DNA of 64,000 nucleotides from an uncultured Bacteroidia bacterium (GTDB lineage: Bacteria > Bacteroidota > Bacteroidia > Bacteroidales > UBA932), in the NCBI GenBank assembly GCA_902780935.1, contig CACZHP010000008.1:62001-126000 (forward strand). The letters are read 5' to 3'. The notes under the pieces were generated by a model that made no database searches, was not told where the DNA came from, and saw only the letters and a list, made by a program, of their open reading frames with translations. Below, piece by piece: positions 2,298 to 53,804 of this stretch. The translations under genes were made by a program, and so were the position numbers. Position 1 is the first letter of the stretch; each line of letters opens with the position of its first letter.

Positions 2298-4567
2298 TCT
2301 CGCGTAAAACCCGGAGCCTGGGCGTCGCCATAACCCTGGCAGCGGCTGCCCTCTTCCTCCTGGCCTTTAAGTCCGGAGGATCTGATGCCGAGGCGCATAA
2401 GCCTGTTGCGGAGCCGCTTCCGCTCGGAAGTGTCCGTATCACAGGCGAGAATCGCCTGACCTCGAACCGGGATCTTGACATACGGGCAATCCTCTCATGG
2501 GATGTCCGGAAATTCCTCTATAACTACCTCGACACCTATGGACTCGACACCTCAGGTTGCCCTCAACCTGAAGGTTGGGACTCTGTCGACACCAAGCTGA
2601 AAGGTCACGGGTCCGGGCATTATATGTCAGCGCTGGCACTCGCTTATGCGGGATGTGATGATCCTGCCTTGAAGGACAGCCTTCTTTCCAGGATGCGGAT
2701 TATGGTGGATTGCCTGCGGGAGTGTCAGGAGAGGACCTTTGTCTATGACGAGGCTCTCGGACGTTACCGGGAGGCCAGGGACTACGCTCCGGAGGCCGAG
2801 CTCCGGGAGATGAAAGGCACCTGGGAAGCTTTCGACGAGTACAAGAAGTCTTTCTCTGAATATGGTTACGGCTACCTCAACGCTATTCCGGCGGCCCACT
2901 GCGCCCTTGTCGAGATGTACCGTCCCTACAACAATTCCGATTGGGTCTGGGCTCCGTACTATGTTGTCCACAAGCAGCTCGCCGGGCTGATCGACATAGC
3001 TACCCTTGTCGATGACAAGGCGGTTTCTCGGAAGGCTCTGAAAATAGCTGAAGACATGGGTCTTTGGGTCTGGAACCGATTGAAATACAGAACTTTCGTC
3101 GATAACTACGGGGATTCGGAGTCCCGCCGTTCCGTCCCGGGAAACCGCTATGAGATGTGGAACATGTACATTGCCGGTGAGGTCGGAGGAATGGAGGAGT
3201 CCCTTTCTAGGCTCTCGATGATGGTTCGGGACAAGGTTTCAGCCGAGCGGCTTCTCGAGGCCGCGGGCTTCTTTGACAGCCCTGCCTTCTTCGAGCCGCT
3301 GGCCCGGGGGGAGGATTCGATCCACGGCCGGCACGCCAACCAGCATATTCCCATGGTCATCGGGGCCCTGATGAACTATCGGGCCGGAGGTTCGAGAGTC
3401 TATTACGACATCGCGAGGAATTTCTGGGACTTCGTCCAGGAGGGCTACATCTACGCCACCGGCGGGGTGGGGGACTCGGAGATGTTCCGGGAACCGTTTA
3501 CCCAGATGGCCAGCATGATAGCGAGCAGGACTCCGGAGATGAACGAGACTTGCTGCGCCTACAATCTCGCCAAACTGACCAAGGACCTGAATTGCCTCGA
3601 CCCGGACAATGCCCGCTATATGGATTATTATGAGCGGGTTCTGTACAACCAGATCGTGGGTTCGATCCATCCTTCGGAGTATAAGGTGACATATCAGTAC
3701 GCCGTTGGATTGAACGCCTCAAAGCCGTGGGGAAACCGGACTCCTCAGGAATCCTGCTGCGGGGGTACCGGGGCTGAAAACCATGTCAAGTACCAGGAGG
3801 CGGCCTATTTCGTCTCCAGGAATACTCTCTGGGTCGGGCTGTATCTGCCTTCGGAGGCCGTCTGGGACCGCCGCGGCGTGACCTTGTCCCAGGAATGCGA
3901 GTGGCCTGCGGAGAGGTCAGTCATCCGTGTCAGGAAATCCCGCCGGCCGTCCGGCTGGTTCCGCCCGGCCCGGTTCTCCATGAAGCTGAGGGTCCCGTAC
4001 TGGGCCTCGGAGGGCTTCGACATCAAGCTTAATGGCAAGCCGTTGGCTCCCGCTTATACACCCGGCAGTTATATCGAGATCCCCCGCTGCCGCTGGACCC
4101 GCCGCGACTCCGTCGAGATCATCATGCCCTACGTCGAGCACATCGACTATGGCCCTGATCCCGTTGTCATCCAGAGCGCCCCACCTGTCACCCAGAGCGC
4201 CCCACCTGTCATCCTGAGCGCCCCACCTGTCATCCTGAGTGCGGCGAAGGATCTACGCGCGGCGAAGGATCCGTCCCCCGAGCGCCTCGGCGCCCTGATG
4301 CGCGGCCCGCTGGTGATGGCGGCGGTGGGAATCAAAAGCTGGGACGAGGCTGTTATTCATCTCGGCCCCGATGGCAAGTCTGCCTCCCAGCCCACCGTCC
4401 AGCCCACCGCCCAGCCCATCGCTCCCGGTAGCTCGCAGCCAGCTGTTCCCGCTGCCCCGACCGTTCCGTTCCAGTTTACCCTGGACGGCAAGACCTTCAT
4501 CCCCGACTACCAGGCCGACACCTCCGTCACCCATTATCTGCGTATTTTGGAAACAGTTGATTTTTAA
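2294..4567 (+). CDS. GH127 beta-L-arabinofuranosidase-like (DUF1680)
   Basis: A secreted 757-residue glycosidase with an N-terminal hydrophobic segment. It carries both conserved cysteine motifs of family GH127: NETCCAYN near residue 416 and ESCCGG near residue 485. In the characterised GH127 enzyme HypBA1, a Glu, a Cys and a Cys-Cys pair bind zinc and one Cys is the nucleophile; the equivalents are visible here. The fold is an (alpha/alpha)6 barrel with beta-sandwiches. Two low-complexity insertions interrupt the C-terminal sandwich region: a 21-nt tandem repeat between YGPD and GALMRGPLVM, and a Pro/Gln-rich stretch around 4381-4460. Native family sequence resumes after each. Likely substrate is a plant arabinofuranoside. 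Confidence 0.85.
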   Translation: MISRKTRSLGVAITLAAAALFLLAFKSGGSDAEAHKPVAEPLPLGSVRITGENRLTSNRDLDIRAILSWDVRKFLYNYLDTYGLDTSGCPQPEGWDSVDTKLKGHGSGHYMSALALAYAGCDDPALKDSLLSRMRIMVDCLRECQERTFVYDEALGRYREARDYAPEAELREMKGTWEAFDEYKKSFSEYGYGYLNAIPAAHCALVEMYRPYNNSDWVWAPYYVVHKQLAGLIDIATLVDDKAVSRKALKIAEDMGLWVWNRLKYRTFVDNYGDSESRRSVPGNRYEMWNMYIAGEVGGMEESLSRLSMMVRDKVSAERLLEAAGFFDSPAFFEPLARGEDSIHGRHANQHIPMVIGALMNYRAGGSRVYYDIARNFWDFVQEGYIYATGGVGDSEMFREPFTQMASMIASRTPEMNETCCAYNLAKLTKDLNCLDPDNARYMDYYERVLYNQIVGSIHPSEYKVTYQYAVGLNASKPWGNRTPQESCCGGTGAENHVKYQEAAYFVSRNTLWVGLYLPSEAVWDRRGVTLSQECEWPAERSVIRVRKSRRPSGWFRPARFSMKLRVPYWASEGFDIKLNGKPLAPAYTPGSYIEIPRCRWTRRDSVEIIMPYVEHIDYGPDPVVIQSAPPVTQSAPPVILSAPPVILSAAKDLRAAKDPSPERLGALMRGPLVMAAVGIKSWDEAVIHLGPDGKSASQPTVQPTAQPIAPGSSQPAVPAAPTVPFQFTLDGKTFIPDYQADTSVTHYLRILETVDF
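4166..4250 (+). repeat. In-frame 21-nt tandem repeat inside GH127
   Basis: Three full copies of a 21-nt unit (4166-4186, 4187-4207, 4208-4228) begin GTCATCCWGAGCGCCCCACC, with only one or two differences between copies. A fourth copy (from 4229) diverges into GTCATCCTGAG..GCGAAGGAT. Being 21 nt, the unit keeps frame and encodes a V-I/T-Q/L-S-A-P-P heptad. The last unit runs into the duplicated GCGGCGAAGGATC (4240-4274). The repeat sits in a loop, between conserved GH127 blocks. Confidence 0.85.
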
Positions 4568-4582
4568 TAATATATGCAAAAC

Positions 4583-4610
4583 GCGTAGCTTATTTGGCTA
4601 CGCATTTTTT
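4583..4610 (+). terminator. Rho-independent terminator after GH127
   Basis: A 7-bp stem GCGTAGC (4583-4589) / GCTACGC (4597-4603) with a 7-nt loop is followed by ATTTTTT. It lies 16 nt downstream of the GH127 stop and ends the first operon. Confidence 0.8.
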
Positions 4611-4656
4611 GTATATTGTTGAATGTCAAGTAGTTTATAATAACATCATTTATTTG

Positions 4657-4664
4657 TAAATTTG
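4657..4664 (+). promoter_or_regulatory. Bacteroidota -7 promoter element for ridA
   Basis: TAAATTTG matches the Bacteroidota -7 consensus TAnnTTTG and lies 19 nt before the ridA ATG in an AT-rich gap. A clear -33 TTTG at the usual 19-21 nt spacing is not visible. Confidence 0.55.
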
Positions 4665-4683
4665 TGCTGTAATATTTAATCAA

Positions 4684-6806: not shown

Positions 6807-9100
6807 GCGCCGCAGCAAAGATGCCGCCTGGAGGCGGCCGGATGAGAGGGGGAGTGAGGGAACCCCACATGTCCAGGGAAGACCTCAAGAAAAGCCTCGG
6901 GAAGGATTCCACGGTGTGGAGGCTTTTCCGCCTGATATTCAAGAACTACAAGATCCGTTTTGGAGTCGTGCTGGCCTGCATCGTGATCTCCGCTTTGACC
7001 ACTCTGGCCTCGTCTCTTTTCACTCGGACCCTGATCGACGACTACATCGCCCCGATGCTCTCCCAGGCCGTGCCGGATTTCTCTCCCCTGGCCGGAGCCC
7101 TTCTGAAACTCGCCGCGGTGTTGCTGGTCGGTGTCGCGGCCTCATATTCGTACAATCTGATCATGTTTTTCGTGGGGCAGGGGACCATGCTGAAGCTTCG
7201 CCAGAACCTGTTTACCCACATGGAGGATCTTCCGCTGAGCTACTTCGACTCCCATTCCCACGGCGACATCATGTCGGTCTATACCAATGATGTGGACACC
7301 CTGCGTCAAGTGATCGGGAACACTGTCCCCAACCTCTTCCAGTCGCTGATCACCCTCGTCTCGACTTTCGTCTCCATGATCGTCCTGTCGATGCCCCTGA
7401 CGCTGGTCTCCATCCTTATGGCGGTCCTGACGGTCCGGGTGACGACCGGCCTCGGAAAGATCTCCAGGGCCCATTTCGTCGAGCGCCAGAAGGCCTTGGG
7501 GGCCGTCAACGGCTTCATCGAGGAGATGGTCTCGGGGCAAAGGGTGGTCAAGGTATATTGCCATGAGAAAAAGGCGGTGGAGGATTTCGCAGCCCTGAAC
7601 GAGCATCTACGCTCGAGCGCCTACAACGCCAACAAGATCGGCAGCATGGTGATGCCTATCAACGGGAATATCGGCAATCTTGGATATGTCCTCACCGCAG
7701 TCGTCGGGGCTCTTATCGCCATCGGCGGGGTGACGGCATGGTATATGTCCGGAATCGGGGGCGCGACCCTGACTCTGGGTACCCTGGTGGCATTCCTTTC
7801 GCTCCAGAAGAACTTCACGAGGCCGATCTCGAGCATTTCCAATGAGATAAACTCTATCGCGATGGCTTCAGCGGGCACTGACAGGGTATATAGCCTCCTG
7901 GACGAGCCGCAGGAAGTCGATGAAGGCAAGGTCACTCTTGTCAATACCACCGTCGCTCCCGACGGCTCCATCGTCGAATCTCCCGTCCGCACAGGCTCCT
8001 GGGCCTGGAAAGCGGTAGGCCTTTCAGGCCAACCATCTACCCCCCTGCACCCCCCAGGGGGACTGAGGGGCGTTCCCCTCAGACTCCCTGAGTCGCTTCG
8101 CTCCGAGTCGCCTGTGGCGGCCGAAGGCGATCTGGCGTCAGGTCTGGCAAGTCCAGGCCGTAGCCACCCTCGGCTCGTAAGAGGGAGGGGCCCGCTTGCG
8201 GAGCAAGTGGGAGGGGCCGAGCGGAGCGAGGAGTCTGGACTGCCAGAGCCTGACGCCGATGACTCCGGAGCGGCCTCCGGGCTAAGGGCGTACTCAGCCG
8301 CAGCGAAGCGAGGATGGACGCGCCCGTGTCCGGAGGGCCGTCCGGCAATAGCGGTATTGACACCATTACAGGGCTTGGTGAGCCTGGAGGATGTGGATTT
8401 CAGCTATGTGGAGGGGAAGCAGGTGCTGTTCGACATCAGCCTGACGGCGTATCCTGGGCAGAAAATCGCCTTCGTCGGCGGCACCGGAGCCGGCAAGACC
8501 ACGATCACCAACCTCATCAACCGCTTCTACGAGATCCAGGAAGGCACCATCACCTATGACGGCTTCGACATCAGGCAGATCGACAAGGATTCCCTGCGCC
8601 GGAGCCTCGGGATAGTCCTCCAGGAGACGAAACTGTTCTCGGCCTCGGTGCTGGACAACATCCGCTACGGCCGTCTGGACGCCACGGACGAGGAGTGCAA
8701 GGCGGCAGCCAGGCTCGTCTATGCCGACTCCTTCATCCGCCGTCTGCCTCAAGGATATGACACCGTCCTCGCCGCCGACGGAGGCAACCTCTCGCAAGGG
8801 GAGAGGCAGCTTCTGGCCATCGCCAGGGCCGCCGTGGCCGATCCGCCAGTGCTGATTCTCGACGAAGCCACCTCCTCCATCGACACCCGCACCGAGAAAC
8901 TCATCCAGAAAGGCATGGACTCCCTGATGAAGGGGCGCACCACCTTCGTGATCGCCCACAGGCTCTCCACAGTCCAGAACGCCAACTACATCATGGTAAT
9001 GGATCACGGCCGCATCATAGAACGCGGCCGTCACGACGAGCTTCTCGCCCAGAAGGGCAAGTATTACGAGTTATATACCGGAAACCAGATTACGGCTTAA
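6803..9100 (+). CDS. ABC exporter half with consensus ATP site and large linker insert
   Basis: This is the partner subunit of the preceding exporter half, starting in an ATGA overlap at 6803. The membrane domain covers about residues 50-385. The NBD starts near 520, with Walker A GGTGAGKTT, LSQGERQ signature, Walker B LILDEATSS and a normal IAHRLST switch loop, so it supplies the catalytic residues. At 765 residues it is well over 100 longer than usual. The excess is a translated palindromic insert (about residues 405-517) placed exactly between the conserved linker motif TGSWAWK and LVSLEDVDFSY. The N-terminus also has a glycine-rich stretch (PPGGGRMRGG) that may not be native. Confidence 0.9.
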   Translation: MSAAAKMPPGGGRMRGGVREPHMSREDLKKSLGKDSTVWRLFRLIFKNYKIRFGVVLACIVISALTTLASSLFTRTLIDDYIAPMLSQAVPDFSPLAGALLKLAAVLLVGVAASYSYNLIMFFVGQGTMLKLRQNLFTHMEDLPLSYFDSHSHGDIMSVYTNDVDTLRQVIGNTVPNLFQSLITLVSTFVSMIVLSMPLTLVSILMAVLTVRVTTGLGKISRAHFVERQKALGAVNGFIEEMVSGQRVVKVYCHEKKAVEDFAALNEHLRSSAYNANKIGSMVMPINGNIGNLGYVLTAVVGALIAIGGVTAWYMSGIGGATLTLGTLVAFLSLQKNFTRPISSISNEINSIAMASAGTDRVYSLLDEPQEVDEGKVTLVNTTVAPDGSIVESPVRTGSWAWKAVGLSGQPSTPLHPPGGLRGVPLRLPESLRSESPVAAEGDLASGLASPGRSHPRLVRGRGPLAEQVGGAERSEESGLPEPDADDSGAASGLRAYSAAAKRGWTRPCPEGRPAIAVLTPLQGLVSLEDVDFSYVEGKQVLFDISLTAYPGQKIAFVGGTGAGKTTITNLINRFYEIQEGTITYDGFDIRQIDKDSLRRSLGIVLQETKLFSASVLDNIRYGRLDATDEECKAAARLVYADSFIRRLPQGYDTVLAADGGNLSQGERQLLAIARAAVADPPVLILDEATSSIDTRTEKLIQKGMDSLMKGRTTFVIAHRLSTVQNANYIMVMDHGRIIERGRHDELLAQKGKYYELYTGNQITA
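8013..8355 (+). repeat. Composite in-frame palindromic insert in ABC exporter
   Basis: About 340 nt of GC-rich sequence shares modules with inserts in other genes. Module D (8038-8065) matches the reverse complement of gltA 13221-13248 at 27 of 28 positions. Module E (8092-8120) matches trmO 22171-22199 at 27 of 29. A variant of core A lies between inverted arms of 23 nt at 8134-8156 and 8235-8257, paired with two single-base bulges. A small stem CCGGAG/CTCCGG follows near 8265-8280. The whole insert is open in the host frame and encodes a Gly/Ser/Pro/Arg-rich linker containing GGAERSE, as in trmO. Confidence 0.85.
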
Positions 9101-12691: not shown

Positions 12692-14236
12692 ATGGCAGAG
12701 AGGATTCCAAGAGTACCGGTCAGGGAGCAGGATCCCAAGGTACGCGCTCATAATTTCGAGGAAGTTTGCTACGGATATAACCTCGAGGAGGCGATGACAG
12801 AGGCTTCAAGGTGCCTCCATTGCAAGAATCCGCGTTGTGTGACCGCATGCCCGGTCAGCATCAAGATTCCCGAGTTCATTGCGAAGGTCAAGGAAGGCGA
12901 TATCGCCGGAGCCGCCGCCATTATCGGCGAGGACTCCTCGCTGCCCGCAGTATGTGGCCGAGTCTGCCCGCAGGAGACTCAGTGCGAGGGCAGCTGCGTG
13001 CTGGGCGTCAAGGGTGAAAGTGTCGCCATCGGCAAGCTCGAGCGCTTCGTCGCCGACCATACTTTCGAGGGGGAAACACTATCCCCTTCAGGAGTCGGCT
13101 GCGCCTCTGAATCGGAGGTTCTGAGGAGCGAAGCGACGAATGCGGCATCAGCCGCAGCGTCGGAATCCCGAGCGATGCGAGGGATGGTAGACGCGGGGCC
13201 CCGAACCGAAGGTTTGGGGACAATCCCCCTGGGGGGTGCAGGGGGGTATAAAGGAACCGATAATGGCCACAAGGTGGCCATTATCGGTTCCGGCCCCGCA
13301 GGGCTCGCGTGCGCTTCCGACCTCGCGAAGTGGGGCTACGACGTCACGATCTTCGAGGCTCTCCACAAAGCCGGTGGCGTTCTCGAATACGGTATCCCCG
13401 AGTTCAGGCTTCCGAAAGAAGCTGTACTAAAGCGTGAGATAAACGAAGTTAAAGCATTAGGAGTCAAGATAGAAACTGATGTAATTATCGGTCGCACCGT
13501 CACTATCGACAGCCTGATGGACGACGAAGGCTTCGAGGCCGTGTTCGTCGGTACGGGAGCCGGACTGCCGAAGTTCATGGGCATCCCCGGAGAGAACCTA
13601 AACGGAGTTTTCTCCGCCAACGAATTCCTGACCAGGAACAACCTCATGAAAGCTTTCCGCGAGGATTATCTCACCCCGATCCACGCCGGCAAGAAATGCT
13701 GCGTCGTGGGCGGAGGAAACGTCGCTATGGATGCCGCAAGGACAGCCTTGAGACTTGGTGCCGACACATCCATCATCTATAGAAGGACCGAGGTTGAGCT
13801 TCCTGCCCGTAAGGAGGAAGTCCATCATGCCAAGGAAGAAGGAGTTGATTTCCAGATGCTTACCAACCCCGTTGAGATTATCGGCGATGAGAATGGCTGG
13901 GTTAAGGCCCTGAAATGCATCCGGATGGAACTCGGAGAACCGGACGAGAGCGGACGCCGCTCACCTGTCCCTATTCCAGGCTCGGAGTTCGAGATTCCTA
14001 CCGAAACGGTCATCATGGCTCTTGGAACCGCTCCTAACCCGCTCATAGTTAACACTACGAAGGGGCTTGAGGCGACTCGAAGAGGCGGTCTCGTGGCTGA
14101 TGACGAGGGTCGCACCACCCGTCCTGGAATCTTCGCTGGTGGAGATGCTGTGACCGGAGCGGCCACTGTCATACTCGCGATGGGTGCCGGCAGAAAAGCC
14201 GCGAGAGCCATTGATGAGTATCTAAAGACCAAGTAA
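12692..14236 (+). CDS. gltA: NfnB/GltA-like NADPH oxidoreductase with in-frame insert
   Basis: A 514-residue flavoprotein homologous to the NADPH glutamate synthase small chain and the NfnB large subunit. The N-terminus holds two [4Fe-4S] cysteine clusters (CLHCKNPRCVTACP; VCGRVCPQETQCEGSC). Two Rossmann motifs follow: IGSGPAGLACAS for FAD and VGGGNVAMDAART for NADP(H), with a C-terminal GDAVTGAATVILA block. The ATG at 12692 follows the nfnA stop by one base; an upstream extension in frame only overlaps nfnA. About 65 extra residues, encoded by a palindromic insert, sit between HTFEGE and the first Rossmann strand. The neighbour indicates an Nfn-type complex rather than true glutamate synthase; no GltB is present. 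Confidence 0.85.
   Translation: MAERIPRVPVREQDPKVRAHNFEEVCYGYNLEEAMTEASRCLHCKNPRCVTACPVSIKIPEFIAKVKEGDIAGAAAIIGEDSSLPAVCGRVCPQETQCEGSCVLGVKGESVAIGKLERFVADHTFEGETLSPSGVGCASESEVLRSEATNAASAAASESRAMRGMVDAGPRTEGLGTIPLGGAGGYKGTDNGHKVAIIGSGPAGLACASDLAKWGYDVTIFEALHKAGGVLEYGIPEFRLPKEAVLKREINEVKALGVKIETDVIIGRTVTIDSLMDDEGFEAVFVGTGAGLPKFMGIPGENLNGVFSANEFLTRNNLMKAFREDYLTPIHAGKKCCVVGGGNVAMDAARTALRLGADTSIIYRRTEVELPARKEEVHHAKEEGVDFQMLTNPVEIIGDENGWVKALKCIRMELGEPDESGRRSPVPIPGSEFEIPTETVIMALGTAPNPLIVNTTKGLEATRRGGLVADDEGRTTRPGIFAGGDAVTGAATVILAMGAGRKAARAIDEYLKTK
13078..13291 (+). repeat. In-frame palindromic insert in gltA with inverted copy of host motif
   Basis: About 175 nt of GC-rich insert is followed by a perfect palindrome. 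Left arm 13253-13270 (GGAACCGATAATGGCCAC), 3-nt loop AAG, right arm 13274-13291, 18 of 18 paired. The right arm is native coding sequence for V-A-I-I-G-S of the FAD-binding Rossmann motif, so the left arm is an inverted copy of host sequence. Module D (13221-13248) is shared in inverse orientation with the ABC exporter insert. A further stem pairs CGACGAATGCGGC with GCCGCAGCGTCG near 13134-13164. All is read through in frame as T-D-N-G-H-K before the Rossmann strand. Confidence 0.85.
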
Positions 14237-15011: not shown

Positions 15012-18000
15012 TCAGAGCAGGTGGCCGAGGAAGCGGGCTTTGTCTGCCTCTGACATGCCTCGGCGGGCGGCGTAATCATCTATTTCTGAAGACGATAGGT
15101 GACGAATCTCGGGGTAGGATGCCTCGGGATGAATGAATATTAGCCCGCAGATCGATGCCTCCGGAATCATCGCGCAACTGTCCAGAAGGGTGATGCCCAG
15201 ACCGTTCGGAGAATCCGTCCCGAGAGAACCACCGTCGTCAGGTCGGTAAGACCGGTCTGAGGAACCGGAAGCGTCGAGCAGCCGGAGAATATCCCTTTTC
15301 AGGGTGTGGTCCGGACAGCTGGAATAGCCGGCAGCCGGTTTGATGACTTTGAACCGGGAACTGCCGGTAGCGGAGCCACCCGCCAAACCTTCAGGAATGG
15401 AGGCCTTCACATATTCGTCAAGCCATCCAGACGCAGCTTCTGCCAGCGTCAGGACCACTGCCCGCCGCACCATGCCGCTATCGTCCGGTTCCTCTCCGGC
15501 GGCCCCGCCGTAATGAACGCTGATCGCGAACATACCCATGGGGGAGTCGAATCCATATTCGGAAGGTGCGACGAAGTCGGCGAGGGAGAGGCCGCCGGGA
15601 GTGCCGTCAGGGGAAGAGGGTTGCCTGAACATCGGCAGGCGGAAGTCCCGGGAGATGATGTCGTCACCCTCGGAATGGGCCAAGTCGAACCTGGCCGAGA
15701 TGGTTATCCGACAGCCCCCACCTGAGCGCAAGTCCTTCAAGACCGCCTCTCCCTCGGATCTTAATCGCATGAATTCCAGGTGGTTCCGGTCGGCTCTCGC
15801 CCCAAGGATCGTGGCGTACATCCTCCAGTCGAAGAACGGCTCGACATCCTCGACAGAAAGCCCCCTCGCCCGAATATCCCTAAAAGGATTCCCCTTGATA
15901 TAGCTGTCCGCAGACCAGGTCGCCGGCTGCCGACATTGCTGTTGGCGACCATTTTCCCGGATAGGGCGCGAAGCGCAGGGAGACGACGGCAATGTCGGAG
16001 CCGGCTTACCTTCTTGCGCGAAGCGTAGCGAGCCAGGACCGGTGCTTGCCGCCGCATCACCATTCTCCGGTCTTGCCCGCCTCTGCCCGGTTGTCTCGTA
16101 CGCCTCCCGAAGCGCCCTTTGCCGCTCATGCTCAGCAGCTTCCGTCGCCTCCCTGTCGCTCACCAGCTTGCTCGCCAGCACCGCTGAAGCCGAAGCGTCC
16201 GCCCCATAGAAGACATGCCTGTAAAGCGGAGCGAGCTTCACCGCCGTGTGGATCGCCGAAGCCGCCGCTCCGCCGACGAGAAGGGGAGTCTCCAGCCCCA
16301 GCGCCTCCATGTCCTTGCAGAGCAGCTCCATCTGGTAGAGCGACGGAGTGATCAGCCCGCTGACGCCGATGATGTCAGCCCCGGTCCGGGCGGCCTCCTC
16401 CAGAATCGTCTCCTTCGGGACCATGACTCCGAGATCCGTAACCTCGAACCCATTGCAGGTGAACACTATACCAGTGATATTTTTCCCTATGTCATGTACA
16501 TCGCCCTTGACGGTGGCCAGTAGCGCCTTGGGTCTGTCGGTGATCTCGGAGGAGCCTTCAGCCAGGTATGGATGGAGCAACTCGACGGCGGTTTTCATGG
16601 TCCTTGCGGACTTGACGACCTGCGGCAGGAACATCTTTCCGGCCCCGAACAGCTCGCCGACACGGGCCATGCCATCCATCAGGGGGCCGTCGATCACCTT
16701 GAAAGCCTCGCCGCCATATTGCCCAAGGCACTCCAACAGATCCGTCTCCAATCCTGAAGCGTCACCCTTCACCAGCGCCCTCTTTATCCGCTCCTCGACG
16801 CTTTCTGTACCTGGTTGCGTGTCGCCGGATAGCATGTTGCCTGGTTGCGTGTCGCCGGAGGGAGTATTGGTGAGTCCAACCCATGCCACCCTCGGCACTG
16901 TAAGAGGGGGGACCGGAGCGGAACGAAGTGAAGCGAGCGGTGGGGCCGAGCGGAGCGAGGCGGTTGGACCACCAATACTCCCTCCGGCAGATTGCATCTC
17001 TTGGGCATATTCGATCAGTCGCTCGGTGGCGGCGGGATCGGAATCCAGGATGACGTCCTCGACCCTCCGGAGCAACTCCGGCTCGATCTCGTCATAGATC
17101 TTGAGCATCCCAGGGTTCACGATCCCCATGTCCAGGCCGGCATTGATAGCGTGGTAAAGGAAAACCGTGTGCATAGCCTCCCGGACAACGTTGTTGCCCC
17201 TGAATGCGAAGGAAAGGTTCGATATGCCTCCTGAGGTCCGGCAGCCCGGCAGATTATGCTTGATCCATCTGACCGCCTCAATGAAATCGGCGGCGTAGCG
17301 GGAGTGCTCGGGAATGCCGGTTCCGACCGGCAGGACGTTAACATCGAATATTATGTCTGTTGGGGAATATCCCGCCTTTTCCGTCAAGAGTGAATATGCC
17401 CTCTGGCAGATCGCGATCTTCCTGTCGTAGGTCGTGGCTTGGCCTTCCTCGTCGAATGCTATGACGATTAAAGCGGCTCCTAAAGCCTTTATCTCACGTG
17501 CTTTAGACAGGAATATTTCTTCTCCTTCTTTAAGTGAAATCGAGTTGACGACGCACTTGCCCTGGGCGTTCTTCAGGCCGGTTAGAATGGTGTCCCAATG
17601 GGAAGAGTCGATCATGATCGCCGCCTTCGCTACCTCGGGTTCTCCGGCTATGTGCCGCAGGAAGGTCTCCATCTCTTTGGCGGAGTCGAGCATGGCGTCA
17701 TCCATATTGATGTCGATGATCGAGGCGCCGTTCTCTATCTGCCCGGCGGCGATCCGCAGCGCCTCCTCGTAGTCTCCGGCGGCGATCAGGCGCGCGAACT
17801 TCCTTGATCCCGCCACATTTGTCCTCTCCCCGACATTCGTGAAGTTCCTGCTCCGGTCAATCTCCACACTCTCCAATCCGCTAACGTACAATGGCTTCCA
17901 CGAATTCTCTGTCGAGCCGTGGAGGCTAGTGGTGGTCCAACCGCCTCGCTCCGCTCTTCGGCTCCGCTCAGGGACCGCTCGGCTGATGCCGACTTCTGAA

Positions 18001-18077
18001 AGACTTTTGGCGGCAGGAGGAGACACTGAACGGCGAGGACCGTGGACGCCCTCGTCACGCAAGAGGGAGGGGCCCAT
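15012..18077 (-). CDS. metH: Methionine synthase MetH, pterin/cobalamin/activation part
   Basis: The larger piece of cobalamin-dependent methionine synthase. It has the pterin-binding domain (NVGERTNVAGSRKF...ASIIDINMDDAMLD), the cobalamin-binding domain with the GDVHDIGKN ligand-His motif and GVSGLITPSL, and a C-terminal activation domain (LADFVAP...IKPAAGYSSCPDHT...YAARRGMS). The homocysteine domain is on the adjacent ORF in another frame. The frame is open to 18374, but the native domain resumes only near 17895. I give the ATG at 18077, inside the palindromic insert and 23 nt upstream of the end of the first ORF, as the likeliest restart; this is tentative. Three inserts (C with partial A, A, B) lengthen it. 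The activation-domain Arg of the RPAxGY motif is Lys here. Confidence 0.8.
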   Translation of the reverse strand: MGPSLLRDEGVHGPRRSVSPPAAKSLSEVGISRAVPERSRRAERGGWTTTSLHGSTENSWKPLYVSGLESVEIDRSRNFTNVGERTNVAGSRKFARLIAAGDYEEALRIAAGQIENGASIIDINMDDAMLDSAKEMETFLRHIAGEPEVAKAAIMIDSSHWDTILTGLKNAQGKCVVNSISLKEGEEIFLSKAREIKALGAALIVIAFDEEGQATTYDRKIAICQRAYSLLTEKAGYSPTDIIFDVNVLPVGTGIPEHSRYAADFIEAVRWIKHNLPGCRTSGGISNLSFAFRGNNVVREAMHTVFLYHAINAGLDMGIVNPGMLKIYDEIEPELLRRVEDVILDSDPAATERLIEYAQEMQSAGGSIGGPTASLRSAPPLASLRSAPVPPLTVPRVAWVGLTNTPSGDTQPGNMLSGDTQPGTESVEERIKRALVKGDASGLETDLLECLGQYGGEAFKVIDGPLMDGMARVGELFGAGKMFLPQVVKSARTMKTAVELLHPYLAEGSSEITDRPKALLATVKGDVHDIGKNITGIVFTCNGFEVTDLGVMVPKETILEEAARTGADIIGVSGLITPSLYQMELLCKDMEALGLETPLLVGGAAASAIHTAVKLAPLYRHVFYGADASASAVLASKLVSDREATEAAEHERQRALREAYETTGQRRARPENGDAAASTGPGSLRFAQEGKPAPTLPSSPCASRPIRENGRQQQCRQPATWSADSYIKGNPFRDIRARGLSVEDVEPFFDWRMYATILGARADRNHLEFMRLRSEGEAVLKDLRSGGGCRITISARFDLAHSEGDDIISRDFRLPMFRQPSSPDGTPGGLSLADFVAPSEYGFDSPMGMFAISVHYGGAAGEEPDDSGMVRRAVVLTLAEAASGWLDEYVKASIPEGLAGGSATGSSRFKVIKPAAGYSSCPDHTLKRDILRLLDASGSSDRSYRPDDGGSLGTDSPNGLGITLLDSCAMIPEASICGLIFIHPEASYPEIRHLSSSEIDDYAARRGMSEADKARFLGHLL
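15922..16005 (-). repeat. Palindromic insert, core B, in metH
   Basis: Arms GCCGGCTGCCGACATTGC (15922-15939) and GGCAATGTCGGAGCCGGC (15988-16005) pair at 17 of 18 positions with a one-base bulge. Between them 15950-15982 is identical, 33 of 33 nt, to 51705-51737 in the MBL hydrolase gene. Both host genes are on the minus strand and both read the core in the same frame as PCASRPIREN. The arms are unrelated between the two loci. It lies between the cobalamin and activation domains. Confidence 0.85.
16810..16859 (-). repeat. 20-nt direct repeat next to core A insert in metH
   Basis: CCTGGTTGCGTGTCGCCGGA occurs at 16810-16829 and 16840-16859, a perfect repeat with 30-nt period. It encodes SGDTQPG twice on the metH strand. 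The second copy overlaps the start of the left arm of the adjacent palindromic insert. Confidence 0.9.
16854..16988 (+). repeat. Palindromic insert, core A, in metH (antisense to host)
   Basis: Left arm 16854-16881 and right arm 16962-16988 pair over 27 nt with one extra base. The core 16877-16966 is 90 nt and matches recQ 43647-43736 at 88 of 90 positions, and trmO 22224-22313 nearly as well. The arms beyond the core differ completely from those at recQ and trmO. Relative to its gene the core is inverted compared with the other two, yet it still has no stop in the host frame (reads ASLRSAPPLASLRSAPVPP). It lies between the pterin- and cobalamin-binding regions. Confidence 0.9.
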
Positions 18078-18163
18078 ATCGCAGGAGAGGGAGGGAAAAC
18101 TTGTTTTCACGCACTCTCCAAGAGATGGGAGGGGCCGCCGCCAGTGTCTCCTCCTGACATGCC
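17930..18163 (-). repeat. Composite palindromic insert (core C plus partial A) splitting metH
   Basis: Core C at 18054-18136 is identical in all 83 nt to the core at recQ 43502-43584, in the same orientation relative to the host gene. Perfect 15-nt arms flank it: CAGGAGGAGACACTG at 18014-18028 and its complement at 18142-18156. On the pterin-domain side, 17930-17956 is the reverse complement of the right end of the core A copy (16948-16974, 27 of 27). The Hcy-domain frame enters the core in a frame that ends at its TGA; the downstream metH frame reads it as [12 protein letters not shown], as recQ does. Confidence 0.88.
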
Positions 18164-21311: not shown

Positions 21312-21340
21312 GATGTTGTCTGTTTGAAACAGTACTTTCG

Positions 21341-21371
21341 CAAAGGTATTGGGTTTGGAAAATGATTCCAA
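21341..21371 (-). promoter_or_regulatory. Promoter for metY
   Basis: On the minus strand TTG (21369-21371), 20 nt, then TACCTTTG (21341-21348). Both match the Bacteroidota consensus with correct spacing, 29 nt upstream of the metY ATG. Confidence 0.7.
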
Positions 21372-21375
21372 GAAG

Positions 21376-21407
21376 TTGCGAAACTTTGGGAAATTTTACT
21401 ATTTTTG
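21376..21407 (+). promoter_or_regulatory. Promoter for the Lrp-type regulator
   Basis: TTG (21376-21378), 21 nt, then TATTTTTG (21400-21407). It is back to back with the metY promoter. An inverted repeat GGAATA...TATTCC (21420-21441) just downstream could be an autoregulatory operator of the Lrp protein; that is a guess. Confidence 0.6.
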
Positions 21408-21473
21408 TATTAATAAATAGGAATATTTTCGGAATTATTCCGGGCAAACAGGAGATTACAGAATTTTTTAACT

Positions 21474-21947: not shown

Positions 21948-21955
21948 CTTTGAAT

Positions 21956-41772: not shown

Positions 41773-43701
41773 ATGTCGCCGGCTGATGTGCTGAAGGATT
41801 ATTGGGGGTACGATAGTTTCCGCCCAATGCAGGAGGAGATTATCTCGGCCGCCCTGGAGGGGAAGGATGTGCTGGCGATCCTGCCCACGGGCGGTGGGAA
41901 GTCCGTCTGTTTCCAGGTGCCGGGAATCATGGCGGAGGGCCTGACCATTGTGGTGACCCCGCTGATCGCCCTGATGAAGGACCAGGTCCAGAACCTGGAG
42001 AAGAGGGGAGTGAGGGCTCTGGCAATCCATGCCGGGATGTCCCGTCATGAGGTGGATCTGGCTCTTAACAACGCCGCTTACGGGGATTACAAGTTCCTGT
42101 ACCTTTCCCCTGAACGTCTGGGGACCCGCCTTTTCCAGTCTTATCTTGACATACTGAATGTCAGCTACATAGTAGTCGATGAGGCGCATTGCATCTCACA
42201 GTGGGGATATGATTTCAGGCCGGACTATCTAAAGATAGGTGACCTGCGAGAGAGAATTGACGCTCCGGTGATAGCCTTGACCGCGACTGCTACCCCCACC
42301 GTGGCTGACGACATCATGGACAAACTGGGTTTCCGGGAGAAGCTCCTCCTGAAGAGCGGTTTCGAGAGACCGAACCTGAGTTATATCGTGCGGCATGTGG
42401 AGGACAAGAACTCGCAGATCCTGAATATCTGCCGGGGTGTCCCTGGCAGTGGGATAGTCTATGCCCGCAACAGGGCAAAGTGCGAGGAGCTTGCAGCCAT
42501 GCTCAAGGCCGAGGGGATCAGTGCGGAGTTCTATCACGCCGGTCTCGGATCCCACGCCCGGAGCGAGCGTCAGGAGGCCTGGAAGGCCGGCAGGACACAG
42601 GTTATGGTCTGTACAAACGCTTTCGGAATGGGCATCGACAAGCCGGATGTGCGGTTCGTGGCTCATTATGACCTTCCGGATAGTCCGGAGGCGTATTTCC
42701 AGGAGGCCGGAAGGGCAGGCAGGGACGGGAAGCGCTCTTATGCCTTGCTTCTTTGGAACGGGATCGACACCCGCCGCCTTTCCCAGATCGGAAATGTCTC
42801 TTTCCCTTCCCTTGAATACATAGGGAACATATACCAGAAGCTTCACGCTTTCTTTGAGATTCCTTACGATGCCGGGATCGGCCGCCAGTTGAAGTTCTCA
42901 CTGGAGGACTTTTGCAAGGCGTTCGGGTTCCAGCGCGCTCCGGTGTTCCATTCCCTGAAATATCTCGAGCGTTCCGGGCACCTGACGTATTCGGAAGAGG
43001 TGGACATCCCGACGAAGGTCAGGATCTCCGCTGACCGGAAGTCGTTGTATGACATTGACTTGCCCAGTCAGGAGATGGCTTCTCTGCTGGACTTGCTGAT
43101 GCGGACATATCCGGGAATATTCTCTTTCCTCCAGACTCTTGACGAGGATTATCTGGCCGGCCGTCTCGGAACCACCGTGCCAGGGCTGCGACAGCTATTA
43201 TATTCGCTCTCCCTTGAACATGTCATCTCTTATGTGCCGGCTGCTCATTCGGATGTGGTGTTTCTGCACCATGACAGGTTGAGGCCGGGGAATGTGGATC
43301 TCATGCCGGAGCGCTACAAGATGCTCAGGGATAATTTCCGTTCCCGGTCGGAGGCGATGCTTGAATATGCGTCCGAGACATCCGAGTGCCGCTCCCGCTA
43401 CCTCCTGCGCTACTTCGGCCAGACCGACACCACCGACTGCGGCACTTGCGACATTTGTCGTGGCAGACAGGCTCTGGCAGTCCAGACTCCTCGCTTCGCT
43501 CGGCCCCTCCCATCTCTTGGAGAGTGCGTGAAAACAAGTTTTCCCTCCCTCTCCTGCGATATGGGCCCCTCCCTCTTGCGTGACAGACCTGTCTGCCACG
43601 TCAGCCAGTATTTCCGATTCGTCCGGTGCGGCCAGTCTGGCAGGCTCAACCCATGCCACCCTCGGCATTGTAAGAGGGGGGACCGGAGCGGAACGAAGTG
43701 A
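41773..43701 (+). CDS. recQ: RecQ DNA helicase, C-terminus disrupted by inserts
   Basis: A RecQ-type 3'-5' DNA helicase. Motif I LPTGGGKSVCFQ, DEAH box VDEAHCISQWGYDFRPDY, motif V/VI with FGMGIDKPDVRFV and QEAGRAGRDGKRS, then the zinc-binding cysteines CRSRYLLRYFG...CGTCDIC near residues 535-560. At about residue 563 the frame enters a palindromic insert with core C ([12 protein letters not shown]) and ends 80 codons later in the following core A copy, in the wrong frame. The expected C-terminal tail is in the +1 frame (43580-43993). The helicase core is intact, so the truncated protein may still work. Confidence 0.9.
   Translation: MSPADVLKDYWGYDSFRPMQEEIISAALEGKDVLAILPTGGGKSVCFQVPGIMAEGLTIVVTPLIALMKDQVQNLEKRGVRALAIHAGMSRHEVDLALNNAAYGDYKFLYLSPERLGTRLFQSYLDILNVSYIVVDEAHCISQWGYDFRPDYLKIGDLRERIDAPVIALTATATPTVADDIMDKLGFREKLLLKSGFERPNLSYIVRHVEDKNSQILNICRGVPGSGIVYARNRAKCEELAAMLKAEGISAEFYHAGLGSHARSERQEAWKAGRTQVMVCTNAFGMGIDKPDVRFVAHYDLPDSPEAYFQEAGRAGRDGKRSYALLLWNGIDTRRLSQIGNVSFPSLEYIGNIYQKLHAFFEIPYDAGIGRQLKFSLEDFCKAFGFQRAPVFHSLKYLERSGHLTYSEEVDIPTKVRISADRKSLYDIDLPSQEMASLLDLLMRTYPGIFSFLQTLDEDYLAGRLGTTVPGLRQLLYSLSLEHVISYVPAAHSDVVFLHHDRLRPGNVDLMPERYKMLRDNFRSRSEAMLEYASETSECRSRYLLRYFGQTDTTDCGTCDICRGRQALAVQTPRFARPLPSLGECVKTSFPSLSCDMGPSLLRDRPVCHVSQYFRFVRCGQSGRLNPCHPRHCKRGDRSGTK
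43462..43597 (+). repeat. Palindromic insert, core C, in recQ
   Basis: Outer arms GGCAGACAGG.. (43462-43476) and ..CCTGTCTGCC (43584-43597) pair over 14 nt with one bulge. The core 43502-43584 is identical, 83 of 83 nt, to the core in metH (complement of 18054-18136). The segment 43469-43490 also matches the right arm of the ABC exporter insert (complement of 8233-8253). Read in the recQ frame as [17 protein letters not shown]. Confidence 0.92.
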
Positions 43702-43993
43702 AGCGAGCGGTGGGGCCGAGCGTAGCGAGGCGGTTGAGCCGCCAGAGCTGGCAGCACCGGTAGCACCGGTCATAGCTTCTGTCGCCGAAGTTCCAAATCC
43801 TATAGAGCCGCCAGAGCTGGCAGCATCGGTTGAGGAGGCGATTGTGCGGTTCATCGAGGGAAAAGGGGGAGCGTATAGGGTTGCGGATGTGGTGGCGGAG
43901 TTCGGGAATCCGGCGAAGGGTTATCCTCAGGACTATCTAGAGGTGCTGCGGCACCTGATTGACGACGGGGTGGTTCCACCACCTGGCGGCTAA
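43580..43993 (+). CDS. Displaced RecQ C-terminal tail (out of frame)
   Basis: A 137-codon frame beginning with GTG in the core C insert. It first reads the core A insert in the conserved frame (STHATLGIVRGGTGA...GGAERSEAVEPPEL), then a native-looking helical stretch VEEAIVRFIEGKGGAYRVADVVAEFG...YLEVLRHLIDDGVV. That part resembles the C-terminal winged-helix-like tail of Bacteroidota RecQ proteins. It lies +1 relative to recQ. It could be the lost tail after an indel, a product of frameshifting, or a sequencing artefact. Independent translation is unlikely but possible. Confidence 0.55.
   Translation: MTDLSATSASISDSSGAASLAGSTHATLGIVRGGTGAERSEASGGAERSEAVEPPELAAPVAPVIASVAEVPNPIEPPELAASVEEAIVRFIEGKGGAYRVADVVAEFGNPAKGYPQDYLEVLRHLIDDGVVPPPGG
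43631..43752 (+). repeat. Palindromic insert, core A, at the recQ 3' end
   Basis: Arms 43631-43651 and 43732-43752 are identical to those of the trmO insert, and both elements are 122 nt long. The 90-nt core is 43647-43736. It follows the core C insert by 33 nt, so two different elements sit in tandem. The right arm plus flank (43736-43761) is repeated at 43805-43830 with one mismatch in 26, so a partial third copy or a duplication lies in the tail. Confidence 0.9.
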
Positions 43994-51240: not shown

Positions 51241-52344
51241 CTATTCTATGACAAGCCCGTCGTAGGCCGGGCGGACAATCGAGTGGATGTGCTGTTCCGA
51301 GCACATGCGCTCGAGTTCCTTGTCGAATACTTCGTGGACAGGGAAGGAATGTGAGAGGTGGGTGAGCCAGGTATGTTCGGCGCGGATGCGGTCGGCGAGG
51401 TCGAGGGTTTCCTGGAGACTGAAGTGGGAATGATGTCTGTTGTAGCCTACCGTGTTGAGGGTCAGGTGTTTCAGCCCTTCCAGTTTGGCGAATTCACTTT
51501 CCGGGAGCGTGCTCATGTCGGTAATATACGCTATGTCCCCGAACCGGAATCCCAGCACCGGCAATTTATCATGCAGTCCCCGTATCGGAATAATCGTCAC
51601 CTCTGTCGCTGACGGCTCAGCTGTTTCGAATCTGTCGTCAGGCTCTGACAGACCTGACGACAGCTCGCCATCGTTTGCTGCAGGCGGCAATGCGCCTGGG
51701 CGGACATTTTCCCGGATAGGGCGCGAAGCGCAGGGAGCCCAGGCGCCTTTTGCCGACTGCAGTGACACATCGGCAGCTACCGCTTTCGGGGCTTCGTCGA
51801 TCATATCGTCAAGCGAGCGGGCTGTGGGGATGAGGCTGCCGTCGGGGAGGCGGTAGTGGTAACCGATGTCGTGGACCCAGACGAGTTCCTTGTCGGCGGT
51901 GTCTTTCCGGAGTATGAACGGACGCTCGTCGATGACGTGCAGCATCCATTCGGGAGCTCCGGGATATTTCGGGAACTTGAAGACATAGGGATATTCCCGG
52001 ATAAGGTCCTCGAGGACATTCCTCTCGCAGTAAATCTCTGCGGCGCGGCGGTCCACATAATTCAGCGAGCGCACATCATCGAGCCCTCCCGTGTGGTCCT
52101 TGTGGTTGTGGGTCAGCAGGATAGCATCGAGATGGCTAATCCCGAGCCGGAGCATCTGCATCCGGAAGTCGGGACCCGCGTCCACGAGAATACTCAGTCC
52201 TTCATATTCAACGAATGCCGATGCCCTGAACCTCTTGTCACGCTCGTCTTTCGAGCGGCACACCTCGCACTTGCATCCGATAATCGGTACTCCCTGGGAA
52301 GTTCCGGTCCCGAGAAATGTCAGCCTTGCCCTGCCACCTGTCAT
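51241..52344 (-). CDS. PhnP-like metallo-beta-lactamase hydrolase with inserts
   Basis: A 367-residue MBL-fold hydrolase: FLGTGTSQGVPIIGCKCEVC, the zinc motif THNHKDHTGGLDD, THLSHSF and a C-terminal AYDGLVIE. The GCxCxVC site at the N-terminus fits the PhnP group (phosphodiesterases on cyclic phosphates). The family is usually about 250 residues. About 70-100 extra residues (PCASRPIREN...) between GSLIPTARS and TEVTIIPI come from two adjacent palindromic inserts. Its ATG overlaps the mtaB stop (52341-52344), so the two are co-expressed. Confidence 0.86.
   Translation of the reverse strand: MTGGRARLTFLGTGTSQGVPIIGCKCEVCRSKDERDKRFRASAFVEYEGLSILVDAGPDFRMQMLRLGISHLDAILLTHNHKDHTGGLDDVRSLNYVDRRAAEIYCERNVLEDLIREYPYVFKFPKYPGAPEWMLHVIDERPFILRKDTADKELVWVHDIGYHYRLPDGSLIPTARSLDDMIDEAPKAVAADVSLQSAKGAWAPCASRPIRENVRPGALPPAANDGELSSGLSEPDDRFETAEPSATEVTIIPIRGLHDKLPVLGFRFGDIAYITDMSTLPESEFAKLEGLKHLTLNTVGYNRHHSHFSLQETLDLADRIRAEHTWLTHLSHSFPVHEVFDKELERMCSEQHIHSIVRPAYDGLVIE
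51632..51663 (-). repeat. Core-less hairpin in the MBL gene
   Basis: Arms CTGTCGTCAGG (51632-51642) and CCTGACGACAG (51653-51663) pair perfectly over 11 nt with a 10-nt loop. The inner CAGGCTCTG...CAGACCTG is the same as the inner arm sequences of the recQ core C element (43468-43476 and 43584-43591), but no core lies between. It looks like an element that lost, or never received, its core. Confidence 0.75.
51678..51762 (-). repeat. Palindromic insert, core B, in the MBL gene
   Basis: Arms CTGCAGGCGGCAATGCGCCTGGG (split: 51678-51700) and 51738-51762 pair with a few bulges. The core 51705-51737 is identical in 33 nt to metH 15950-15982 and in the same frame and orientation (PCASRPIREN). It lies 15 nt from a second, core-less hairpin. 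Confidence 0.85.
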
Positions 52345-53804
52345 AGGATAATATCTTCTATCGTGTTGACTTTCAATGGATCGTACGGCCTCTCGATCCT
52401 GATGTAATTGCCTGAATATCCGCCCATCATCCCGTCTTTGACGTCAGACTCCCAAAGAACTTGCGAAAGGCGTCCCTTGTTCTTCTTGATAAAGTCCTCG
52501 TGCAGCTCCTCGCAGAGGCTCTCGAGCCTGGCCACCCTCTGAGTCTTGACAGAGTCCCTGACTTGGTCCTTCCAACCTGCCGCCACGGTACCTGGCCTTC
52601 TGGAGTAGGGGAACACATGGATGAACGCTGGTTTAATGCGGTCCTTGAGGAATGAATATGTCTTCTCAAACAGCTCGTCAGTCTCTCCGGGAAGTCCGGC
52701 GATCACGTCTATCCCGAAGAAGACGTACGGCTTGAGGTTGCCCTGGGGCTCTCCTGGCCTGGGATCCATCACGGAGCGGATGTAGTCAATCCTGTCGGCG
52801 AAGAAATCCGTCGAGTAGCGCCTCCTGACCCTTTGGAGGATCTCGTCGGCCCCGGACTGTAGGGGAATGTGGAAATGGGGCTGGAACTTCGTCCCGGAGG
52901 CGATCCAGTCCACAATCTCTTCTGTGATAAGGTTTGGCTCAATCGACGAAATCCTGTATCGCTCAATTCCTTCCACGTCGTTGAGGCGCTTCAGCAGCTC
53001 GAGGAAACTCTCGCCGGTTGTCCTCCCGAAGTCACCGGTGTTGACTCCTGTGATGACTATCTCCTTGACTCCGGTTGAGGCGATTGCCTTCGCCTGGGCG
53101 ATGGCGTCGGCGATGGGAATGTTGCGGGACAGGCCGCGGGCGTAGGGGACGGTGCAGTAGGCGCAGAAGTTGTCGCAGCCGTCCTGCACCTTCAGGAACG
53201 ACCGCGTCCGCTCCTCGGAGGAGTACGCCTCCAGGATCGGCGCTTGTAGTCGAGGGAGGTCATTGTCCCCGGAAGTTTCTGTTGGTTGATCCGAGGGGTA
53301 TAGTCCCCCCGCCGGGCCTGGCCGCCCGTGGCCAGGTGAGCGGGAGGGGCCCAGATCGCCGGAGGGGAAGGGAAAACTTGTTTTCACTGACTCTCCAAGA
53401 GATGGGAGGGATTTACCCGCCGGGGAGACTATACCCTCCGGAACTCCCTCTGACATGGGAAAAACATCCAGCAGGGACAGCGTGTCGGGGACGATGCGGG
53501 TCTTGTCGGTGGCGCCGAATACAAGCGCCACACCCTCAATAGCTTCCAACTCCTCCCGACGCAGCTGCGCATAGCAGCCCGTCACCACGATCCTCGCCTC
53601 AGGCGACACCCGATGGACCTTGCGGATCACATTGCGGCACTTCTTCTCGGCCCGCTCTGTCACCGAGCAAGTGTTGACCAGATACACGTCCGCCTTATCC
53701 TCCCACTGGACGACCTCAAGACCAGCCGCCACGAAACCCCGCTCGTAAGTGGAAGTCTCAGCGTAATTGAGCTTGCAACCAAGTGTGAGGAAGGCTATTT
53801 TCAT
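52341..53804 (-). CDS. mtaB: tRNA t6A37 methylthiotransferase MtaB with in-frame insert
   Basis: A 487-residue radical-SAM methylthiotransferase that converts t6A37 to ms2t6A37 in tRNA. It has the N-terminal UPF0004 domain cysteines (TLGCKLNYAET; VNTCSVTERAEKKC; VTGCYAQL), the radical-SAM motif DGCDNFCAYCTVPYARG, and a C-terminal TRAM domain (GYSGNYIRIERPY). The family is about 430-440 residues. The excess is a palindromic insert between the UPF0004 domain and the radical-SAM motif (LPSLGESVKTSFPF...). It starts a run with the MBL gene (overlap) and lies next to folB. trmO at 21956 acts on the same base of tRNA. Confidence 0.93.
   Translation of the reverse strand: MKIAFLTLGCKLNYAETSTYERGFVAAGLEVVQWEDKADVYLVNTCSVTERAEKKCRNVIRKVHRVSPEARIVVTGCYAQLRREELEAIEGVALVFGATDKTRIVPDTLSLLDVFPMSEGVPEGIVSPAGKSLPSLGESVKTSFPFPSGDLGPSRSPGHGRPGPAGGLYPSDQPTETSGDNDLPRLQAPILEAYSSEERTRSFLKVQDGCDNFCAYCTVPYARGLSRNIPIADAIAQAKAIASTGVKEIVITGVNTGDFGRTTGESFLELLKRLNDVEGIERYRISSIEPNLITEEIVDWIASGTKFQPHFHIPLQSGADEILQRVRRRYSTDFFADRIDYIRSVMDPRPGEPQGNLKPYVFFGIDVIAGLPGETDELFEKTYSFLKDRIKPAFIHVFPYSRRPGTVAAGWKDQVRDSVKTQRVARLESLCEELHEDFIKKNKGRLSQVLWESDVKDGMMGGYSGNYIRIERPYDPLKVNTIEDIIL
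53291..53441 (-). repeat. Palindromic insert, diverged core C, in mtaB
   Basis: Arms of 26 nt (53291-53316 and 53416-53441) pair with about five mismatches around a shared GGGTATAGTC. The core (about 53332-53410) is a diverged copy of core C in recQ and metH. It has the same orientation and reading frame relative to its gene (LPSLGESVKTSFPF). Its arms are unrelated to those of the other two copies. Confidence 0.85.

Follow-up and report, generated by a model that had tools for sequence, protein, structure and literature searches.

The window analysed here is a 64-kb stretch from a draft genome of an uncultured Bacteroidales bacterium (3.05 Mb in 82 contigs), and all coordinates below refer to it. 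Where labels are needed, G-numbers are genomes (G000 being the window's own), L-numbers are loci and P-numbers are homologous proteins; the window itself is G000:C8:62001-126000. GC-rich repeats lie within its genes for a GH127 protein, an ATP-binding cassette (ABC) exporter, gltA, metH, trmO, recQ, a metallo-beta-lactamase (MBL)-fold hydrolase and mtaB, host genes having been identified with Pfam (nine stretches) and NCBIfam (six stretches). The initial annotation described them as in-frame palindromic insertions that share sequence modules and live only inside genes. The repeats are built of a core of ~70-140 nt between inverted arms, and they occupy both protein linkers and gaps between genes in one Bacteroidales genus of gut and rumen. 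Their site-specific arms, their inversions and their two fixed reading frames go beyond that annotation.

The shared modules, designated cores A, B and C, are present as described. Core A occurs at 16877-16966 (metH), 22224-22313 (trmO) and 43647-43736 (recQ) as one family, the metH and recQ copies being 98% identical. Core C at 18054-18137 in metH is identical across 84 nt to 43501-43584 in recQ, and a diverged version (85%) lies in mtaB. Core B is shared by metH (15944-15982) and the MBL-fold hydrolase (51699-51737) with 95% identity over 39 nt. Long inverted arms are found at two metH sites and in trmO, recQ, the ABC exporter and mtaB, among the 25 longest of the 78 inverted pairs of the window. 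DNA folding of seven stretches gives z-scores of -2.4 to -6.5 for six full elements and -0.5 for a partial recQ stretch. Alignment of syntenic relatives, which separates filled from empty positions, finds an insert-free orthologue in one or more relatives at the metH, trmO, recQ, MBL and mtaB sites, in line with the expected absence from orthologues of some relatives.

The metH gene (15012-19074) holds three elements. Its core B element (15921..16005, minus strand) has site-specific arms and a fold z of -2.6, and is absent from the relatives G042 and G090. The core A element (16854..16988, plus strand; z -6.5) stands between perfect 19-bp arms at 16854-16872 and 16970-16988; it is reversed relative to the gene and in frame, is present in G042, and lacks its core in G090. 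The core C element (18014..18156, minus strand), with arms at 18014-18028 and 18142-18156, is again missing from both relatives. The trmO gene carries core A in forward orientation (22201..22336, plus strand; arms 22201-22228 and 22309-22336; z -5.7), at a site that is empty in G033, a bare palindrome in G042 and filled with a reversed core in G456 and G569. Two elements lie close together on the plus strand in recQ, one with core C (43456..43603; core 43502-43584; arms 43456-43471 and 43588-43603) and one with core A (43617..43764; core 43647-43736), the latter in the opposite orientation in G042.

The mtaB element (53290..53442, minus strand; z -2.4) has a core C-like sequence at 53326-53410 between arms at 53290-53316 and 53416-53442; among relatives, its arms co-vary and its core flips. 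The MBL-fold hydrolase contains a core B element (51678..51762, minus strand; z -3.1) with site-specific arms, and five aligned relatives lack core B, one of which, G090, carries core A there instead. Two further core types are represented in the ABC exporter: a core D palindrome (8044..8120, plus strand; arms 8055-8070 and 8075-8090), absent from G042 and G090, and a core E element (8134..8257, plus strand; arms 8134-8156 and 8235-8257; z -5.6), found in G042 and not in G090.

Palindromes made of arms only are also present. One lies in gltA (13253..13291, plus strand), an 18-bp perfect stem with a 3-nt loop situated where the gltA profile match splits into two stretches (residue 233). Another lies in the MBL-fold hydrolase gene (51632..51663, minus strand) and, judging by its sequence, looks like the deletion scar of a core C/E element. 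The GH127 gene, counted as a site of the same family by the initial annotation, does contain a repeat (4165..4290, plus strand), a tandem 21-nt TGTCATCCTGAGCGC repeat with AAGGATCT motifs that exists in other versions in G042 and G090. It is of another type and may not belong to the family. Tandem repeats of the TGTCATCCTGAGCG type in GH127 are a further kind of repeat entering coding linkers.

The claim that the inserts are in frame holds for trmO, mtaB, the MBL-fold hydrolase, the ABC exporter and GH127, which are read without an internal stop, and fails at metH core C and in recQ. Relative to G042, the core C site of metH has a net insert of 238 nt (one more than a multiple of three), and the frame is shifted in this assembly: the homocysteine-binding N-terminal module (19074-18055) and the remainder (18374-15012) occupy different frames across core C, which shares its usual frame with the downstream part. 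This may be a natural split, a pseudogene or a sequence error. The recQ gene (41773-43993) has 397 nt where G042 has 396 nt, and its open reading frame stops at 43701 inside core A; downstream of the stop, a different frame is open. The upstream part of recQ shares its frame with core C and the downstream part with core A, each core being in its usual frame, and recQ in the window is a real frame break. Both frame-breaking copies adjoin the identical core C, and sequencing error may lie behind them.

Copies are numerous genome-wide, as had been anticipated. The recQ composite query yields 43 matches in the window's own genome, and core A alone yields 26 copies at E <= 1e-13 and 4 weaker ones. 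Within the window, every copy found lies in a gene; elsewhere in the genome, several copies are hairpins between genes. At L018-L020, L024, L026, L027 and L030, among 30 loci of the own genome, the hairpins lie beyond or at the edge of genes, and a coding model that takes the reading frame into account, correct for 132 of 138 test windows, classes these loci as intergenic or as coding on one side.

Placement was assessed on 119 non-identical core-A copies from 1.55 Mb of partly overlapping DNA, covering 59 orthologous sites and, so far as labelled, 20 assemblies; since this DNA was picked around core hits, the counts are not genome-wide rates. The coding model places 43 copies in frame inside genes, 41 next to a coding signal on one side and 24 with no coding signal on either side, the rest being called as frameshift (7), stop (2) or edge (2). 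The one-side class includes the window's trmO copy, which is plainly genic, so the 43 genic in-frame copies are a lower bound, and most of the nine frameshift or stop calls probably mark gaps between adjacent genes. Random 140-nt gaps in the same DNA are genic in one frame in 350 of 600 cases, so 43 of 119 does not exceed what random placement would produce and no preference for genes is apparent. Many copies do sit in frame within genes, as proposed; that the elements live only there does not hold. The point is tolerance in frame within genes, not a preference for them.

The genic copies use one frame per orientation. All 24 forward copies (13 independent sites) are read at offset 0, giving a THATLGTVRGGTGAERSEASGGAERSEAVE-like peptide, and all 19 reverse copies (11 independent sites) at offset 1, giving a TASLRSAPPLASLRSAPVPPLTVPRVAWV-like peptide. 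Other frames are frequently open: of 77 cores scored at 87 nt, 75 are open at reverse offset 2 and 50 at forward offset 2. The in-frame intragenic cores measure 87 nt (39 copies), 78 nt (2 copies), 84 nt and 138 nt, all multiples of three, and lengths of 73, 77, 81-83 and 100 nt occur only outside this class. Of 40 scored genic copies, 28 have a left arm that exceeds the right one by 1 nt, so that inversion about the arms converts forward offset 0 to reverse offset 1, the frame seen. Translational bypass or intron-like removal, prompted by the split metH and recQ, was rejected as a general rule on the basis of these lengths and fixed frames. The AlphaFold model of TrmO (mean predicted local distance difference test score, pLDDT, of 59) weakly suggests that its insert is disordered: residues 65-157 fall below 50, a range that comprises the insert and the conserved residues 135-157.

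In nearly all copies, the common core stands between inverted arms specific to that copy. The mean arm score is 10.6 and falls to 0.7 if the partner arms are exchanged at random between copies; 75 of the 119 copies exceed the 99th percentile of the shuffled scores, 32 score 2-9, and 12 score 0-1, the last being short-core variants in which the model end probably overshoots. Under a milder scoring, 107 of 119 copies reach at least 6, including all 43 genic in-frame copies. At the mtaB site, the left arm is GGGTATAGTC in the own genome, AGGTATTGTC in G042, GGGTATTGCC in G090 and GGGTGTACTGCC in G017, and in each the right arm tracks the left fully or nearly; related cores occupy the same linker in more distant species of the genus. 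A general tendency of the arms themselves to be palindromic was considered and rejected (self-stem of at least 5 at 14 of 52 sites versus 13% in shuffles).

Arm changes were counted in 49 of 57 same-orientation orthologous pairs, those in which both copies have an arm score of at least 8 (8 pairs dropped). The arm columns comprise 801 unchanged, 53 changed on one side, 112 changed on both sides with pairing kept and 9 changed on both sides with pairing broken. Independent change of the two sides would be expected to yield about 7 double changes with pairing kept.

Paired changes of this kind and strong predicted hairpins would also arise if the arms were under selection for a hairpin in the transcript, acting through stability, attenuation or translational bypass, and the frame shifts caused by two copies, in metH and recQ, could be taken as a hint of bypass. 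Mismatches in genic in-frame arms, read on the mRNA strand, comprise 37 A/C and 32 G/T; this lack of a G·U excess makes RNA-level selection there unlikely. Copies outside the genic classes, read on the core strand, show G/T 41 against A/C 23, which leaves room for such selection at those positions. Genes hold the cores in both orientations (24 forward, 19 reverse), and bypass would not require the multiples of three seen in intragenic lengths. Selection for an RNA hairpin is therefore considered very unlikely as the general explanation.

Orthologous sites are often filled differently. The 101 orthologous pairs include 100 between different genomes, 44 of which are inverted, and both core orientations occur at 17 of 33 multi-copy sites. 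The same core is turned round in recQ, at an intergenic site (L084/L099) and at L082/L101, and one site (L075/L102) differs in core type, the own genome having core A and G042 having core E. This last comparison, of L102 with L075:8333 and L083:1132, involves related, probably paralogous genes. The sharing of an insert by relatives at one and the same site, which the initial annotation regarded as contrary to its proposal, thus occurs at many sites within the genus, often with a change of orientation or core type.

A dedicated site-specific recombinase that flips the cores, bringing about phase variation of protein linkers, would account for both orientations at 17 of 33 sites and for opposite cores in near-identical proteins. 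Recombinase-driven inversion needs a constant sequence at the inverted repeats; the outer arms vary from site to site in the shuffled-partner test, and the constant inner ends of the core might supply such a sequence. The identified hosts are housekeeping enzymes and transporters rather than surface proteins. Such a recombinase is regarded as improbable.

Several sites retain traces of gain or loss. In trmO, the sequence beside the insert is common to G569, which has a reversed core, and to the empty G042; the two differ by the segment between two TGCCAG copies, which flank the insert in G569 and are matched by a single copy in G042. This arrangement suggests a target duplication and equally fits deletion at the repeat. 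The difference between filled and empty trmO is 111 nt, from stretches of 216 nt in G456 and 105 nt in G042. Insertion into a pre-existing palindrome, as the bare palindrome of G042 might indicate, was set aside: deeper relatives have none, and the palindrome is equally likely a scar. At mtaB, G072 retains one arm only; an inverted target duplication may accompany insertion, and the single arm is likely the result of deletion because it is shared by descent.

Turnover is also evident among near-identical proteins. The TrmO proteins P0023, P0015 and P0003 have identical C-terminal domains, yet the first lacks a core, the second carries it reversed and the third carries it forward. Among 96 parsed sequences, including the window's, seven TrmO proteins at 98.1% identity or more to P0005, again including the window's, have seven linkers, with a single residue separating two of them. 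Of 120 listed homologues of TrmO, 10 have forward-type motifs (one of them, P0068, matched by the motif of a related core), 7 have reverse motifs and 103 have neither. TrmO proteins of other lineages, such as P0099-P0101 and P0104-P0107, carry LRQAQRPEKAAQRPE-like repeats in their linkers. The mtaB products P0134 and P0156 are almost the same outside the core, which has opposite orientations in the two, and MtaB clusters (at least 97.5% identity in the C-terminal part) contain both orientations as well as core-less linkers, for example in P0204. The largest MtaB cluster comprises 22 proteins with 14 linkers, and the 12 of these linkers that are listed all have one orientation. A further insert type, ERPFGSAQGPVGERSRTT, occupies the mtaB linker of P0159, P0160 and P0157, as a tandem duplicate in two of these proteins.

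Flips or duplications of this sort could in principle be introduced by short-read assemblers at inverted repeats. The genomes are all drafts, most of the named ones being metagenome-assembled genomes (MAGs), and the element length is near that of a typical read. Presence and absence, however, come with differing arms and flanks across many assemblies, orientation is heritable within protein clusters, and paired arm changes would be hard to obtain from assembly. It is thus highly improbable that assembly artefacts produced the pattern.

The sequences as assembled present common cores, site-specific arms, paired arm changes and both orientations at orthologous sites, together with one frame per orientation, core-less arm remnants and several linker states on near-identical proteins. 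These features are probably best explained by template switching during DNA replication, which would alter the arms and the core orientation, with selection keeping the in-frame versions. A strand folded into a hairpin would allow the polymerase to copy one arm from the other, homogenising the arms; copying of the loop from the opposite strand would invert the core, and slippage between repeats in the ends would drop the core and leave a scar. Any copy causing a frameshift or introducing a stop in a needed gene would be purged, so that intragenic core lengths divisible by three and the use of two frames would follow. The two frames used would give small, hydrophilic, probably unstructured peptides, and with the 1-nt arm asymmetry the forward frame would map onto the reverse frame, so that a flip would leave the gene open.

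Template switching at inverted repeats is described as homogenising arms and inverting spacers in yeast coding DNA (PMC8604942), and template switching is also reported to maintain RNA stems (PMC8794818). Homogenised arms and inverted spacers are both seen here, in the 112 paired versus 53 single changes and in the 44 inverted pairs among 100. The yeast cases, in the available part of PMC8604942, involve short repeats in single genes rather than a dispersed family with a common core. Template switching alone, with no special enzyme, explains the arms, flips and scars.

Several considerations weigh against template switching combined with selection for frame. It leaves the arrival of cores at new sites unexplained. 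Certain orthologous pairs may instead consist of paralogues, or of separate insertions that each have arms of their own, which would not reflect concerted evolution. The columns counted are those in which the two copies align arm with arm, a choice that favours kept pairs. The evidence consists of assemblies, and a short-read assembler can turn a core round where it lies between inverted repeats, although the constancy of orientation over many proteins of a clade counts against such flips. Core lengths were extended to the model ends and are hence rough, and 34 of 65 copies with a one-side or no coding signal also score 87 nt. Translation of the inserts is deduced from open frames, and the G/T excess outside genic classes leaves room for an RNA-level process there.

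The distribution of core A is narrow. It is present in 38 of 101 genomes of the genus and, among 295 genomes drawn from the order, in one, the window's own. At least 106 stretches of GTDB contigs contain it, and the titles among the 80 GTDB loci listed are Bacteroidales or Bacteroidia, many from ruminants. Carriage by mobile elements was rejected after searches of viral contigs and of plasmid and phage records (the latter two with the trmO element) gave no match. No parent transposon with the same ends was seen in searches for Y1_Tnp and in the plasmid and phage records. Rfam covariance models find nothing in the window at gathering threshold, and among the 30 own loci only two microRNA families match, far below gathering scores, in 8 loci; a structured-RNA or ribozyme reading was rejected on these grounds.

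For the arrival of cores at new sites, a single-strand transposase of the type that moves repetitive extragenic palindromic (REP) sequences, acting on folded DNA, is the leading candidate. A broader proposal is that these are elements of the REP or REPIN (REP doublet forming hairpin) type moved by REP-associated tyrosine transposases (RAYTs), Y1 HUH enzymes that recognise folded single-stranded DNA, with flips and arms as by-products of insertion; this is possible, if rather unlikely. RAYT-like genes occur in 78 of 101 genus genomes. By counts that ignore phylogeny, Y1_Tnp is present in 36 of 38 core-A-positive versus 42 of 63 core-A-negative genomes and, among the 48 well-assembled ones, in 20 of 20 versus 19 of 28. 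The core opens with a small hairpin, paired in 175 of 185 hits and having mostly T-A, sometimes A-T or G-C, as its first pair, which fits recognition of folded DNA without proving it. REP-like sequences within genes (intragenic GTAG/CGTC REPs, REPINs) are likewise small hairpin repeats (PMC3733652), and Bacteroidetes RAYT genes of subclass 2.6 are described with flanking atypical hairpins that are copied elsewhere (PMC6006769).

The motif GTAG or GTGG precedes the start hairpin in only 16 of 202 hits, and the usual tetranucleotides at its foot are ACTG (87) and CATG (52). In a system of the REP and RAYT kind, the repeat would be expected to flank the RAYT gene; of 14 RAYT loci examined among 22 matches listed, just one has a clear match to cores A-E at a distance of up to ~1.5 kb. 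One core E element lies in an rsmA-like gene ~1 kb from a RAYT-like gene (L110, G000:C17, ~20949-22324), and the RAYT-like gene of G017 (L111) has no core nearby. The association with core A is uncorrected for phylogeny, and the RAYT-like transposase is a correlate of core A presence only. REP arms are not known to be site-specific.

Among described systems, the closest in behaviour are the Rickettsia palindromic elements (RPEs), and the likeness drawn by the initial annotation is borne out. Both are palindromic, ~100-150 bp long, of several families, and found in gaps as well as fused in frame in conserved genes (PMC2229807, PMC10969869); here, 43 of 119 copies are in frame in unrelated genes and 24 lack a coding signal on either side. 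RPEs are described with one conserved peptide per element (PMC10969869), whereas here there are two, a different one for each orientation (24 of 24 forward, 19 of 19 reverse). The present elements differ further in phylum, in their site-specific, co-varying arms, in being read in frame in both orientations and in their flips in place. Sequence relation to RPEs was judged through Rfam, with no gathering-threshold match in the window. The elements behave like RPEs, and this likeness does not amount to membership of that family.

Other comparisons are more distant. Miniature inverted-repeat transposable elements (MITEs) are similarly short, dispersed, without a protein of their own and bounded by inverted ends, but no constant terminal inverted repeat exists at the outer boundary here and a target duplication is suggested at one site only (trmO). 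Coding palindromes of nematomorph mitochondria are also inverted repeats within coding sequence, and the available part of PMC6649704 mentions no common dispersed core. A resemblance of the core ends to integron attC sites was rejected on reading the sequences, the R-box pattern failing at other sites. Searches of open-licence papers in PMC listed no title or abstract dealing with such elements or with two-way readable, flipping palindromes; subscription papers were not covered.

In-frame palindromic repeats are best known from Rickettsia, and the present elements extend them to a second phylum. Compatibility with translation in both directions, with orientation changing in place, appears to be a new property as far as these searches of open-licence papers go. 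Tentatively, the elements can be viewed as spreadable, invertible linker cassettes: hairpins that are open and in frame both ways, whose arms are kept complementary and whose fast turnover could generate linker diversity in housekeeping enzymes. They offer dozens of natural sites at which to read template switching of replication in bacterial coding DNA. They also serve as a warning against taking inserts in such proteins for domains or introns, and they represent a route by which enzymes may gain, reverse and lose disordered linkers between close relatives.

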